Below are positions 39,912 through 44,696 of a DNA stretch of 64,000 bases, piece by piece. Source of the stretch: Duganella sp. Root1480D1 (lineage in GTDB: Bacteria; Pseudomonadota; Gammaproteobacteria; Burkholderiales; Burkholderiaceae_D); the NCBI RefSeq assembly GCF_001427305.1, contig NZ_LMFZ01000001.1:249261-313260 (forward strand), in the 5' to 3' direction. How positions within the stretch are numbered: the first letter of the stretch is position 1; each line of letters opens with the position of its first letter. The position numbers were made by a program, and so were the translations under genes. The notes under the pieces were generated by a model that had not been told where the DNA came from, did not search any database, and saw nothing but the letters and a program-made list of their open reading frames with translations.

Positions 39912-40325
39912 CTAGGCGCGTTCGAGGGCGCCGTCACGACGGGTACGGCGGTAGCGCGGCAGGTCGTCGCAGATCGGCTCCCAATGCAGGCGGTTTTCGG
40001 CGAAGGTGTGGTCTTGCGGCGGCAGTGCCTCGGGATCGTCCAGGCTGGAGGTGGTGATATCCATGTCCGCGGGCGAACTGTCGTCGGCAAAGGTGAGGTG
40101 GGTGCCGCAGGTGCCGCAGAATTCGCGCGTCACGCCGGGACTGGAATGGTAGGTGGCGGGCTTGCCGCGCACATATCGGAACTGGGAACGCAGCACGCTG
40201 AACCAGGCCACGCTGGGGGCGCCGGACAGTCGGCGGCACATCGAACAATGGCACCAGGTGCTCACCAACGCCGGCGCATCGGCTTCATACTGCACTGCGC
40301 CGCAAAAACAGCCGCCCGTGTACAT
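39912..40325 (-). CDS. GFA (glutathione-dependent formaldehyde-activating) family protein
   Basis: 137-residue zinc-binding protein of the GFA/CENP-V fold. Cys motifs: GGCFCGAVQY (Cys6, Cys8), WCHCSMCRR (Cys25, Cys27, Cys30), FCGTCGTHL. These provide the two zinc sites of the family. The family binds glutathione adducts; enzymatic formaldehyde activation is disputed. It begins a minus-strand trio or is the last gene of it: Imm26-like and EncFtn-like genes lie just upstream. Confidence 0.92.
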   Translation of the reverse strand: MYTGGCFCGAVQYEADAPALVSTWCHCSMCRRLSGAPSVAWFSVLRSQFRYVRGKPATYHSSPGVTREFCGTCGTHLTFADDSSPADMDITTSSLDDPEALPPQDHTFAENRLHWEPICDDLPRYRRTRRDGALERA

Positions 40326-40335
40326 AGGGATCTCC

Positions 40336-40794
40336 CTACTCCAGCAATTTGGTCATGAGCAGTTCCGCCGAGCCGTAGCCAAACAGCGAATCGCTCTCCA
40401 ACCCCTCCGTGTCGTATGGCACGGACACTTCGCGCTCCGGCTTGGCCGGGTCGTCGCCGTAAGTCGCTTGCCAGGCGCGCTTCAAGGCGTCGGCGCGGCG
40501 GATGAACATCGGCACCGGCCAGTCGCTGCGCTGGAAGCCGATGGTGTTGCCGATCACGGGCCAGCGCCCGTTGGCCACTGCGATATCGCCGGTGCGGATC
40601 ACCTTCAGCGCATCGTTGGCCGTCAACGGCTGTACTTCCGCCAGCGTTGGCAGCGTCCAGTGGATCGGTCCGAACAGGTAGGCCAGCATGACCTTTCCTT
40701 GCGGCGACAGGCGCGCCACCAGCCCGGTGGCATACCCGCCATTTCTGAGCGGGATGGCAAACCAGCTGCCCTCCCGGTACGGCTGCAACTTCAT
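40336..40794 (-). CDS. Imm26-like protein
   Basis: 152 residues. The opening GSWFAIPLRNGGYATGLVARLSPQGKVMLAYLFGP (read in pieces: GSWFAIPLRNGGYATGL, GKVMLAYLFGP) matches the Imm26 immunity family, a small beta-rich domain used in polymorphic toxin systems but often found alone. No toxin gene is present, so a role as a stand-alone protein is more likely. It is followed after 10 bases by the GFA gene and preceded by the EncFtn-like gene (36 bases). Confidence 0.72.
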   Translation of the reverse strand: MKLQPYREGSWFAIPLRNGGYATGLVARLSPQGKVMLAYLFGPIHWTLPTLAEVQPLTANDALKVIRTGDIAVANGRWPVIGNTIGFQRSDWPVPMFIRRADALKRAWQATYGDDPAKPEREVSVPYDTEGLESDSLFGYGSAELLMTKLLE

Positions 40795-40830: not shown

Positions 40831-41130
40831 TTACTCGTAGTGGTACTGCGCGGCGATCGGTCCCGCCTTGAACAGCGCTTCCTTCATTTCCTTGTCCATT
40901 TTCGGATCGCGCCGGCGCACCCATTCCAGCAGCATCGCGATCTGCTTGCGCGTGGCATCGCGATGGCTGGCCATGACCAGCTTCAGCTCGGGGTCGGTGC
41001 ACGTTTCGATGCGCTGGTTCTGCAAATCCAGCATCTCGATCTTCTCGCTCAACGACGTTAGCGCCCGGTGCATATCCAGCACCTGGGCATTGAGGTAGTC
41101 GCGCGGCTCGACCACGTGTTCCTGTGTCAT
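40831..41130 (-). CDS. EncFtn-like protein lacking ferroxidase residues
   Basis: 99-residue helical protein related to encapsulated ferritin (EncFtn). Matches to the family: HRALTSL..E..E, QRIETCTDPEL, HRD, AMLLEWVRRRD, and a C-terminal LFKAGPIAA, in the same order and spacing as in R. rubrum EncFtn. Aligning the two, the ferroxidase ligands Glu32, Glu62 and His65 become Lys30, Thr60 and Gln63; Tyr39 becomes Gln37 and Trp38 becomes Leu36; only the entry-site acids Glu31 and Glu34 remain as Glu29 and Glu32. There is no C-terminal encapsulin-targeting peptide and no encapsulin gene nearby. Not likely to oxidise iron; a structural or regulatory role is inferred. ATG 41130 gives the family N-terminus. 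Confidence 0.78.
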   Translation of the reverse strand: MTQEHVVEPRDYLNAQVLDMHRALTSLSEKIEMLDLQNQRIETCTDPELKLVMASHRDATRKQIAMLLEWVRRRDPKMDKEMKEALFKAGPIAAQYHYE

Positions 41131-41255: not shown

Positions 41256-42425
41256 ATGCAAAACTTCGAATTCCATAATCCGACCCGCATCATTTTCGGC
41301 GTGGGTCAAATTGCCTCCTTGGCAAAACATATTCCCTCCAATGCACGCGTGCTGATGCTGTACGGCGGCGGCAGCATCAAGGCCAACGGCACCTATGATG
41401 AAGTGCGTGCGGCGCTGGCGGGGCTGGAACATCCGGTGCTGGAGTTTGCCGGCATCGAGCCCAATCCGCGCTATGAAACGCTGATGAAGGCGGTGGAACT
41501 GATCCATCGCGAGAACATCGACTTCCTGCTGGCCGTGGGCGGCGGCTCTGTTGTCGACGGCACAAAATTTGTTGCCGCCGCGGCGGCCTACGACGGCGAT
41601 GCCTGGGACATCCTGAAAATCGGCGGCAAGGTGGTGAAGGCTGCCCTGCCCTTTGGCGCCGTGCTGACGCTGCCGGCCACCGGCTCGGAAATGAACAGCG
41701 CCAGCGTGATCAGCCGCGCCGAAACGCAGGAAAAGCGCGCCTTCATGAGTCCACACGTGTATCCGCGCTTCTCGGTGCTCGACCCGGCCAAGACATTGAC
41801 CCTGCCGCTGCGCCAGGTCGGTAACGGCGTGGTCGATGCGTTCGTCCACACCACGGAGCAGTACCTGACCTACCCGGCCAATGCGCCGGTACTGGACCGC
41901 TTTGCCGAAGGCTTGCTGCAAACCCTGCTGGAACTGGGCCCGCAAGTGCTGGCGCGCCCGGACGACGTGGAAGTGCGCGCCAACATCATGTGGAGCGCCA
42001 CCATGGCGCTGAATGGCCTGATCGGCGTCGGCGTGCCGCAGGACTGGGCCACCCACGGCATCGGCCACGAGCTGACCGCCCTGTTTGGCCTGGACCACGC
42101 GCAGACGCTGGCGATTGCGCTGCCGGGCGTGCTGCAGATCCGCCGCGAGGCCAAGCGCGGCAAGCTGCTGCAGTACGCCGAGCGCGTCTGGGGCCTGCAT
42201 GCGGGCAAAGGCACGGAAGACGAACGCATCGACGCGGCGATCGGCAACACGCGCGCCTTCTTCGAGCAGATGGGCGTACCGACCCGCCTGTCCGGCTACG
42301 GCCTGGGTTCGGAGGCGATCGACGCCGTCGTCGCCGCCATGGAAACGGCCGGCCTGACCGGCCTGGGCGAACGCCGCGACATCACGCCTGCCGACGTGCG
42401 CAAGGCGCTGCAATTGAGCCTGTAG
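41256..42425 (+). CDS. Iron-containing alcohol dehydrogenase (YqhD/YugJ type)
   Basis: 389-residue group III alcohol dehydrogenase, NAD(P)H-dependent. Cofactor loop AVGGGSVVDGTKFVAAAA, central TLPATGSEMNSASVI, metal-binding stretch HGIGHELTALFGLDHAQTLAI with the His ligands, and QDWATHGIG just before it. It reduces aldehydes or oxidises alcohols; YqhD-type enzymes have broad aldehyde specificity. ATG 41256 (MQNFEFHNP) matches the family; codons upstream do not. The stop is followed by 13 bases before the TPP riboswitch, so riboswitch and ADH terminator regions are close. Confidence 0.94.
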   Translation: MQNFEFHNPTRIIFGVGQIASLAKHIPSNARVLMLYGGGSIKANGTYDEVRAALAGLEHPVLEFAGIEPNPRYETLMKAVELIHRENIDFLLAVGGGSVVDGTKFVAAAAAYDGDAWDILKIGGKVVKAALPFGAVLTLPATGSEMNSASVISRAETQEKRAFMSPHVYPRFSVLDPAKTLTLPLRQVGNGVVDAFVHTTEQYLTYPANAPVLDRFAEGLLQTLLELGPQVLARPDDVEVRANIMWSATMALNGLIGVGVPQDWATHGIGHELTALFGLDHAQTLAIALPGVLQIRREAKRGKLLQYAERVWGLHAGKGTEDERIDAAIGNTRAFFEQMGVPTRLSGYGLGSEAIDAVVAAMETAGLTGLGERRDITPADVRKALQLSL

Positions 42426-42438
42426 TACAATACCGCCT

Positions 42439-42518
42439 CGCTAGGGGTCCTCGCGCATGTGCGCGGGGTGAGAAATACCCTCCGAACCTGATCTGGATAA
42501 TGCCAGCGAAGGAAAGCG
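42439..42518 (+). ncRNA. TPP riboswitch (THI element)
   Basis: Conserved core elements in order: AGGGGTCC (42443-42450), GGGGTGAGAAATACCC (42465-42480), GAACCTGATCTGGATAATGCC (in two parts: 42484-42493 GAACCTGATC and 42494-42504 TGGATAATGCC), AGCGAAGGAAAG. The base-pair CGCT (42439-42442) with AGCG (42515-42518) closes P1. It precedes the TonB receptor at 42606 by about 90 bases and should repress it when thiamine pyrophosphate is high. Confidence 0.96.
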
Positions 42519-42565
42519 TAGACGGTTGAAGGCCCGCAGTTCCGGGGCCCTGCTCTCACCCTGTC

Positions 42566-42605: not shown

Positions 42606-44696
42606 ATGACTCAATACCGCCTCACCCTGGCCGCACTGGCCGTCGCCTCCGCCTTCGCTCCCGCCGCCTTCGCGCAGGAGCAGAGCATGACCGAAGTGGT
42701 CATTACCGCCAACCGCATCGCCGCCGAACGCGCCTCCGTGGCCGGCTTCAGCGAGCAGCCGTTGCTGCAGACTCCCGCTTCGGTCAGCGTGGTGACGCGC
42801 GAACAGATCCAGGACCTGAACATCTTCAGCACCACCGACGCCGTTAAATTCGATGCCAGCATCGGCGACGCCTACAACGCGGTGGGCTATGCCGAACAGT
42901 TCTCGATCCGCGGCTTCAAGCTGAATAACGCCAATTCCTACCGTAAGGATGGCCATCCGATTTCCGGCGACACCCAGATCCCGCTGGAAAACAAGGAAAG
43001 CATCGAAGTGCTGCGCGGCCTGGCCGGATTGCAGGCTGGCGTGGCGGCGCCGGGCGGCGTGGTGAATTACGTGACCAAGCGCCCCACCGACACCACCCTG
43101 CGCTCGGCGACATTTGCCGTGGGCGAGCGCGGCACCCTGCTGGGCAGCGTCGACCTGGGCGGCCGCTTCGAAGACCGCCGCTTCGGCTACCGCATCAATG
43201 CAGCCGGTGAACGCATGCGCTCCATCATCGAAGGCGCCGACGGCCACCGCAGCTTCGTGTCCGGCGCTTTCGACTTCCGCATCAGCCCGCAGGCACTGCT
43301 GCAGATCGATGCCGACTACCAGAAGAAATCGCAGAAGTCGGCGCCTGGTTTCCAACTGATCGGCGGCACCAGCCTGCCGGTGGTCGACGCAGCCACCTTC
43401 CTGAACGACCAGCCTTGGGCCAAGCCGGTGGAAACGGAAACCAGCAATATCGGCGTGAATTTCCAGTACCAGCTTTCGCCTGAGTGGAAGGCAACCCTGA
43501 GCGCCAACCAGCACCGCTTCAAGCGCGACGACTACACTGCCTTCCCTTACGGCTGCTCGAGCGAGTCGCTGTGGCCGGGCTACTGCACCAACGGCGACTA
43601 CGATGTGTACGACTACCGCAGCCTGGGCGAGGAGAAGAAGCCGCTGTCGGCCAAGGCGCAGTTAAATGGCCGCTTTGCGACCGGTGCGCTGCGCCACGAG
43701 CTGGCAGCCGGCCTATCCTTCTTCAGCAACCATGAGAGCTGGGGCGATTACGTGTATGAATTCGCTGGCGTCAGCAATATCTACCATCCAGTGGTGGTGC
43801 CGATGACCGACAAGCAAGTGGGCCCGGTCTCCGAGCGCCGTAACGATCATGAGCGCTCGGCCTTCGTGCAGGACATCATCAGCCTGAGCGAACAACTGGC
43901 GCTGCACACCGGCGTGCGTTATGCCTCCCTGCGCCGCAATGAGGCCGGCGTCGAGCCGGTGCGCAAGAACTTCTGGCTGCCGAATGTGTCGCTGGTATTC
44001 AGCCCGAGCTCCAAGCTGTCCTATTACGCCAACTATGCGCAGGGCCTGCAGTACGGCAGCGTAGCGCCGATCGGCACCAGCAACGAAGCCCTGGCGCTGG
44101 CGCCGGGCAAGTCGAAACAGGTGGAGCTGGGAGCCAAGGCTGAAGTGAACGGCATCACGCTGACAACCGCGCTGTACCAGATCGAGCAAGGCCTGGAATT
44201 CACCGATGCGGCTTCCAACACCTTCGTGCGCAGTGGCCAGGAACGCCACCGCGGCGTGGAGTTCAGCGCACAAGGCAAGGTAAGCCGCGAGCTGCTGCTG
44301 GGTGCTTCGATGGCAGCGAGCCATACCGAGCAGGAAGGCACCGGCCTGGCAGGCCTGGACGGCAAGCGCGTGACCAATGTGCCGAACTTCAAGTCGACTG
44401 TGTGGGCTGATTACGCGGTGAGCGAAGTACCGGGCCTGAAGCTGAATGCGAACTGGCAGTTCGCGGGCCGCAAGGCGTTCGACCAGGAGAACAAGACCAT
44501 GGTGCCGTCGTACCATTTGGTGAACCTGGGCGGCTCCTACGCCACCCGCGTGGGCGGTGCATCGGTGATCTTGCGCGCACAGTTGAAGAATGCCTTCGAC
44601 AAGTTCTACTGGCGCGATGTGACGCCGGAACTGGGCGGCTACCTGTTCCCGGGTTCGCCGCGCACCTTCCTGCTCTCCGCGCAGGTGGACTTCTAA
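42606..44696 (+). CDS. TonB-dependent receptor under TPP riboswitch control
   Basis: 696-residue outer-membrane receptor annotated by similarity as a siderophore (FhuA-like) type. Signal peptide 1-23 (YRLTLAALAVASAFAPAAFA), TonB box near TEVVITA, plug domain about 45-150 (VVTREQIQDLNIFS; SIRGFKLNNAN; GGVVNYVTKRPTD), then the 22-strand barrel and the terminal aromatic residue (SAQVDF). The riboswitch argues that the cargo is thiamine or a relative rather than a ferric siderophore. It converges on, and overlaps by 4 bases, the OMP/NadR-like/PnuC operon. Confidence 0.92.
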   Translation: MTQYRLTLAALAVASAFAPAAFAQEQSMTEVVITANRIAAERASVAGFSEQPLLQTPASVSVVTREQIQDLNIFSTTDAVKFDASIGDAYNAVGYAEQFSIRGFKLNNANSYRKDGHPISGDTQIPLENKESIEVLRGLAGLQAGVAAPGGVVNYVTKRPTDTTLRSATFAVGERGTLLGSVDLGGRFEDRRFGYRINAAGERMRSIIEGADGHRSFVSGAFDFRISPQALLQIDADYQKKSQKSAPGFQLIGGTSLPVVDAATFLNDQPWAKPVETETSNIGVNFQYQLSPEWKATLSANQHRFKRDDYTAFPYGCSSESLWPGYCTNGDYDVYDYRSLGEEKKPLSAKAQLNGRFATGALRHELAAGLSFFSNHESWGDYVYEFAGVSNIYHPVVVPMTDKQVGPVSERRNDHERSAFVQDIISLSEQLALHTGVRYASLRRNEAGVEPVRKNFWLPNVSLVFSPSSKLSYYANYAQGLQYGSVAPIGTSNEALALAPGKSKQVELGAKAEVNGITLTTALYQIEQGLEFTDAASNTFVRSGQERHRGVEFSAQGKVSRELLLGASMAASHTEQEGTGLAGLDGKRVTNVPNFKSTVWADYAVSEVPGLKLNANWQFAGRKAFDQENKTMVPSYHLVNLGGSYATRVGGASVILRAQLKNAFDKFYWRDVTPELGGYLFPGSPRTFLLSAQVDF

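Follow-up and report, generated by a model that had tools for sequence, protein, structure and literature searches.

The window, a 64,000-nucleotide stretch of the genome of Duganella sp. Root1480D1, contains a gene for a short relative of encapsulated ferritin (EncFtn) whose ferroxidase site has been lost. The protein belongs to a clade, found in Pseudoduganella- and Janthinobacterium-type bacteria, for which homology to EncFtn, loss of three metal sites, a nested place in the EncFtn tree, purifying selection, a displacement of constraint within the protein and a new neighbouring gene are all observed. It looks as though a ferritin relative has, in the course of evolution, ceased to be an iron enzyme and taken on another role. 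By analogy with the ferritin L chain, the former ferroxidase may have been retained as an oligomer with a scaffolding or regulatory role whose assembly does not need iron, a reading to which we assign a probability of roughly one half.

Gene, protein and family membership

The gene occupies positions 40831..41130 of the minus strand, stop codon included, is preceded by the ribosome-binding-site-like sequence AAGGAGAG, and encodes 99 aa. The genome that carries it is 6.6 Mb in size and of Pseudoduganella type, and the nearest named relative of the protein, from P. violaceinigra, is 98% identical over the protein. The original prediction had held that the product matches EncFtn along most of its length and had proposed a profile search as a check. 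That search gave a significant match of residues 6-88 to the Pfam EncFtn-like profile PF22277 (99.2 bits, cut-off 27; E 1.1e-28), which places the protein in this superfamily, and the alignment to EncFtn sequences in the PDB is free of gaps. Among PDB sequences searched with phmmer, 3k6c (N. europaea NE0167) was matched at E 7.5e-25 and the R. rubrum EncFtn entries at E about 1e-18, while the NCBIfam model TIGR04535 (encapsulin-associated ferritin-like protein) scored 72.2 bits, under its cut-off of 125.

A short, non-encapsulated group of EncFtn relatives is already known, as 'Non-EncFtn' in PMC5012862 and as s-FLP in PMC11202242. The 99-residue protein has the attributes of this s-FLP type, namely a length of about 95-100 aa, an EncFtn sequence and the lack of a targeting peptide. 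The last of these had also been predicted, and is borne out by the C-terminus: only 7 residues remain after the LF--GPI motif, too few to accommodate a targeting peptide of the usual kind. AlphaFold was applied to two proteins, one of them the EncFtn-like protein, and both models were of low confidence with no usable structural matches. For the EncFtn-like protein, the AlphaFold2 monomer was built from 22 rows, with 21 of the 22 related loci in the alignment (L141 omitted), and was helical with a pLDDT of 64.1 and a pTM of 0.48; Foldseek returned 0 PDB matches at E 0.001 with this low-confidence model. The EncFtn fold is predicted on the strength of the sequence match to solved EncFtn, which carries the assignment, and not of the model.

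Two other possibilities were rejected. A sequencing error or pseudogene is at odds with the 21 other sampled genomes of the same genus in which the gene is an open frame that also lacks Glu32 and Glu62, and a hidden intact paralogue was not found, the genome holding no second EncFtn.

Loss of the metal sites within the family

In the gap-free alignment to R. rubrum EncFtn, the codon of Lys30 (41041..41043, minus strand) falls at the position of ferroxidase ligand Glu32, and Thr60-Arg61-Lys62-Gln63 (40942..40953, minus strand) at positions Glu62 to His65. The ligands Glu32, Glu62 and His65 are thus replaced by Lys30, Thr60 and Gln63, the di-iron ExxH motif is absent, and Leu36/Gln37 stand at Trp38/Tyr39; every one of these substitutions had been read from the sequence beforehand, and all were reproduced. 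The R. rubrum protein has two more metal sites, Glu31/Glu34 and His57/Glu61/Glu64 (PMC5012862). The first pair, the entry-site acids, is present in the window protein as Glu29/Glu32, and the second site has become Ser55/Ala59/Lys62.

EncFtn matches came from 99 of the 392 family genomes sampled, from 56 of 399 at the level of the order and from 21 of 398 at that of the phylum, in samples that overlap. Together with a scan of genome contigs they gave 141 distinct rows (139 loci and 2 PDB entries), after identical rows had been merged and two fragments of a single gene (L084 and L085) dropped. The three ligands are E/E/H in 79 rows and altered in 62, all of the latter from the window's own GTDB family: 22 rows from the Pseudoduganella-type group g1 (Pseudoduganella, Duganella and a Massilia), 32 from the Janthinobacterium-type group g6, four scattered intermediates (L043, L064, L069 and L078) and four from genus g42. 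Herminiimonas (g23) is among the intact groups.

Outside the family no clear loss of ligands was seen among 57 order matches, one of which (L263) is only half readable, and 20 phylum matches. The order matches, all from outside the window's own genome, were read as sets of 29 and 28 and comprise 56 E/E/H rows and the truncated frame of L263, the later 28 (27 E/E/H and L263) entering this count only; the phylum matches are E/E/H in 20 of 20. L263, from another family of the order, has its first half missing or out of frame and RDEEKEH in its second half, and is a truncated or broken copy. Eleven rows (L191, L194, L251-L258 and L262) end in GSLRE-, IGSLKK- or TVGSMK-like sequences that resemble an encapsulin targeting peptide, and are probably encapsulated relatives. 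Orthologues that retain the ligands, which the original prediction had set against itself, exist only in more distant genera; the nearer rows of g1 and g6 share the loss, and to that extent the prediction stood.

Glu62 is kept in none of the 54 distinct g1 and g6 rows and in none of the four intermediates, Glu32 in 1/54 and His65 in 8/54, and no g1, g6 or intermediate row has Glu62 together with His65. The outer site His57/Glu61/Glu64 is retained in 0/54. Residues 61 and 62 (Arg61 and Lys62 in the window protein) are both basic in 19/22 g1 and 32/32 g6 rows, and a basic residue stands at the position of Glu32 or Glu62 in 22/22 g1, 1/32 g6, 2/4 intermediate and 4/4 g42 rows; in g1 it is Lys, once Arg, and in g6 the former di-iron site mostly has Ala or Ser. 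Two intermediates, L064 and L078, keep Glu32 and His65 and have Lys62 instead of Glu62. Genus g42 (L077, L080, L081 and L082) shows a second type of altered site, with Lys32, Glu62 kept and Asn or Ala at 65, possibly an independent loss that has left Lys paired with Glu where iron would bind.

As E62A alone abolished the activity of R. rubrum EncFtn (PMC5012862) and Glu62 is gone throughout the clade, loss of activity is well founded by analogy, and the window protein is very probably catalytically dead and would be unable to oxidise iron. The further suggestion that the surviving entry-site acids could bind a cation fared less well: the acids are present in the window protein, but both are kept in only 9/22 g1 rows and 0/32 g6 rows, and the case for binding is weak.

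A tree of 115 rows was built from a short alignment (90 columns) with the ten metal-site columns removed, and with distant L198-L201 and 22 near-copies, 26 of the 141 rows in all, left aside; many of its forks stay open. The altered rows nest within the intact, short, non-encapsulated EncFtn of the order, and 45 of them group as a single clade (98/93 support) that unites every g1 and g6 row in the tree with the four intermediates, of which L064, L069 and L078 branch close to its base. The g42 rows are placed outside this clade, with a single origin of ligand loss not rejected (AU p 0.177). Spread by plasmids was rejected as a route: 2 of 72,556 records match, both at less than 45% identity, and both come from other genera. 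An ancestor of the Pseudoduganella and Janthinobacterium groups, equipped with a short, non-encapsulated EncFtn, would have lost the di-iron site of that protein in steps, without relocation of the gene.

The locus and its neighbours

The absence of an encapsulin gene, originally claimed for the neighbourhood, extends to the entire genome. A profile search with PF04454 gave no match there, nor in any of the 79 genomes tested among the other 98 that carry EncFtn, and a hidden encapsulin was rejected on these grounds; these tests, like those for DUF3501 below, cover all EncFtn-positive genomes except eighteen of g6 and one with a split gene.

Immediately downstream of the EncFtn-like gene, 36 bases away on the same minus strand, lies an Imm26-like gene (40336..40794; PF15428, 49.3 bits against a cut-off of 23.3), its probable operon partner, and beyond it a less conserved neighbour, a GFA family gene (39912..40325, minus strand; PF04828 by profile). 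Upstream and divergent is an iron-containing alcohol dehydrogenase (Fe-ADH; 41256..42425, plus strand), for which the best model is YqhD-like, at a score under that model's cut-off. It is followed on the plus strand by a TPP riboswitch (42433..42531; Rfam RF00059, 66 bits) ahead of a TonB-dependent receptor (42606..44696, by profile), another flanking gene. The riboswitch and receptor lie near genes for a PnuC-type transporter and an AAA kinase, and judging by these assignments the region probably serves thiamine uptake, although the receptor itself scores as a siderophore type.

Of 392 family genomes, 91 have the Imm26-like gene, namely 53 of the 55 g1 genomes and 38 of g6. It occurs once per carrying genome and in none of the other genera among the 44 sampled. 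An open EncFtn frame is present at 63/63 g1/g6 loci, and at 62 of them the gene order is the same, with the Imm26-like gene downstream on the same strand at a gap of 9-212 bases; the exception is L113. That order runs from the TonB receptor and/or Fe-ADH through EncFtn and the Imm26-like gene to RisS/RisR (g6 and some g1) or other genes. Neighbourhoods were taken from a gene caller based on codon usage, which left EncFtn itself unreported at 14 of the 63 loci in its own set (L064, L069 and L066 among them); gene order at those 14 comes from clustering of open reading frames or from coordinates, or was not used. No toxin partner for the Imm26-like gene appeared among the neighbours scanned, and the lack of a visible toxin neighbour is unusual for an 'immunity' family.

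At the intact locus L042 the order is Fe-ADH, rubrerythrin, Fe-S oxidoreductase (RFO), EncFtn, DUF3501, RisS and RisR, and the arrangement of its middle four genes recurs at L052, L059 and L063. Since the flanks are shared, the g1/g6 locus and the intact locus are suggested to be the same, with Fe-ADH as an old flanking gene. At all four loci the intact, non-encapsulated EncFtn sits between the RFO and DUF3501 genes of an aerobic-type rubrerythrin operon, described as Rbr-RFO-DUF3501 in PMC5114695, whose main text does not contain the string 'encapsul'. The arrangement suggests a joint role of intact EncFtn and the operon in peroxide or iron defence.

DUF3501, the marker of that operon, occurs in 11 of 80 genomes, and in 9 of the 11 directly behind EncFtn by coordinates. 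It is present in 9/29 genomes with intact EncFtn, in 2/8 with altered EncFtn outside g1 and g6 (L064 and L069, intermediates whose EncFtn sits directly ahead of it), and in 0/43 of g1 and g6. This last count, set against 11/37 for the other EncFtn-positive genomes, speaks for slow decay, in which the site became useless once the rubrerythrin operon had gone and the gene is a temporary relic. The window's own genome has three places that match the ferritin family PF00210, and its sole match to the rubrerythrin profile PF02915 overlaps one of them, as slow decay would also have it. Moreover, 33 of the 55 sampled g1 genomes have no EncFtn match, so the EncFtn-like protein is dispensable, and the loss of its site may, against our preferred reading, have been a stage on the way to the disappearance of the gene. 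Recognised by the TPP riboswitch as a landmark, the same locus minus the gene was found in EncFtn-less genomes: the riboswitch adjoins the Imm26-like gene at 17 of 20 fetched g1 loci. No convincing remnant of EncFtn was seen in the 20 genus-mates examined, out of the 31 that have the Imm26-like gene and no EncFtn; the only candidate was a short stretch in L218 at E 9.7. Opposed to slow decay are the 63 open frames and 62 conserved gene orders, together with the pattern of selection considered next, and on balance we regard it as unlikely.

Constraint, assembly and known counterparts

Median pairwise dN/dS, calculated for pairs with dS of 0.1-1.5, is 0.216 in g1, 0.162 in g6 and 0.184 in intact relatives, with a range of 0.01 to 0.94; values of about 0.2 speak against slow decay. 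Constraint has moved within the protein, however. At the ten metal-site positions pN/pS is 0.63 (g1) and 0.56 (g6) against 0.00 in 28 intact family rows, whereas at 13 positions of the C-terminal tail it is 0.07 and 0.06 against 0.39. This tail, ALFKAGPIAAQYHY in the window protein (40837..40878, minus strand), is newly constrained in the clade by comparison of both selection and entropy. At 90% non-redundancy the clade is the more divergent set (mean identity 0.646 in 22 rows, against 0.787 in 21 rows of the intact family), yet the mean entropy of its 14 tail residues is 0.30 bits as compared with 1.21 bits in intact rows; about 1% of windows of the same length show an equally strong shift, although the tail was picked after the column table had been viewed. 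Elsewhere pN/pS is 0.34 (g1) and 0.26 (g6) against 0.18, a sign of some relaxation in the remainder of the protein that counts for slow decay and against our preferred reading. The active site of the clade has been released from constraint and its tail fixed. With purifying selection alongside this moved pattern, repurposing is more likely than decay, and the original view of a dead or repurposed member, which the loss of Glu62 in 54/54 g1 and g6 rows and 4/4 intermediates had already favoured, is upheld.

The consensus of the tail in the clade is ALFKAGPI(A/V)AQ(Y/F)HY. In 48 rows, the 54 without six near-identical g6 rows, Tyr98 is invariant, and the tail His is replaced by Arg in 6/48 and Gln in 1/48. 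LFKAGPI is already present in intact rows of genus g13, so that conservation of the tail may partly predate loss of the site. It is conceivable that the Imm26-like protein is the functional partner of the dead EncFtn, for instance with the tail as a docking peptide, as their close spacing on one strand at 62/63 loci and the restriction of the Imm26-like gene to g1 and g6 would suggest. Yet the Imm26-like gene occurs in the absence of EncFtn in 31 g1 genomes, the g6 row L113 has the same tail without the Imm26-like gene, and intermediates with no Imm26-like gene in the fetched stretch already carry FK(A/T)GPI, which makes a pair rather improbable. Slimmer still are the prospects of a site for another metal or small ligand built from Glu29/Glu32 or from His, Tyr and Glu of the tail: the acids kept by the window protein and nine g1 rows and the invariant Tyr98 point that way, but the acid pair is missing from every g6 row and the tail His is replaced in seven.

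The preferred reading, that of an oligomer kept for scaffolding or regulation, draws on the charge of the former ferroxidase interface. On the prevailing view, iron acts as a switch for EncFtn assembly, since the acidic ligands are mutually repulsive before metal is bound. Summed over eight interface positions (31, 32, 34 and 61-65), net charge comes to -5 or -6 in 73/73 intact rows, +1 to +2 in the 22 g1 rows and 0 to +2 in the 32 g6 rows (L198-L201 and the two PDB rows were not counted). The R. rubrum mutants E32A and E62A assemble into decamers when iron is absent, which the authors ascribe to loss of repulsion, and H65A is a monomer in solution (PMC5012862). Iron-free assembly of the clade proteins is thus plausible by analogy; a ring at the old interface is disfavoured, since His65 is lost in 46/54 rows and H65A is monomeric. 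In known EncFtn, helix 4 lies at the outer rim and the non-ferroxidase interface is the stronger one (PMC11202242), and a dimer through that interface would be the fallback to a ring.

With its repulsive acidic charges gone, the former ferroxidase interface would no longer need iron, and the protein may assemble constitutively, as a ring or at least as a strong non-ferroxidase dimer. Such an assembly would serve as a scaffold or regulatory oligomer, in which the conserved fourth helix and C-terminal tail at the outer rim could hold subunits together or dock a partner. A fuller version, which we hold tentatively, is that an iron-dependent, self-assembling ferroxidase became an iron-independent ring or dimer by the swap of neutral or basic residues into its site, its function moving to the outer-rim tail, and gave rise to a bacterial pseudo-ferritin lineage with living intermediates. 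The swap would have followed several routes (E32+K62, K32+T62, K32+E62 and A32+S62), perhaps more than once.

No title among the matches listed in the EncFtn, encapsulin and ferritin literature concerns an EncFtn without ligands. Since intact, partly altered and fully altered forms occur at a single syntenic locus, the clade amounts to a natural mutagenesis series of iron-switched assembly, and it poses the question of what use an EncFtn has without iron and without encapsulin. One practical consequence is that matches to PF22277 cannot be read as ferroxidases unless their ligands are inspected.

Among the closest known systems is the s-FLP or 'Non-EncFtn' type represented by NE0167 (3k6c), which resembles the window protein in its length of about 95-100 aa, its sequence throughout and its lack of a targeting peptide; here too there is no encapsulin match, in the window's own genome or in the family genomes tested. 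NE0167 and the intact rows have E32/E62/H65, in contrast to the clade, which is without all three metal sites and inverted in charge. R. rubrum EncFtn (5da5) is homologous, and its mutants E32A, E62A and H65A affect residues that have changed naturally in the clade; the R. rubrum protein is encapsulated, active and equipped with a targeting peptide, which the clade protein does not have. Intact relatives lie inside the aerobic-type rubrerythrin operon, whereas its marker DUF3501 is gone from g1 and g6.

The ferritin L chain functions alongside an active H chain in cages of mixed composition. Such co-assembly with an active family member has no counterpart here, as the genome has no second EncFtn, and the L chain is of an origin unrelated to that of the EncFtn clade; the clade may nevertheless have reached separately the same solution as the L chains of animal ferritin. 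In the human L chain a Lys62-Glu107 salt bridge takes the place of the iron site (PMC11396501), and the window protein, with K30, would likewise be a non-catalytic subunit that has a Lys in a former di-iron site.
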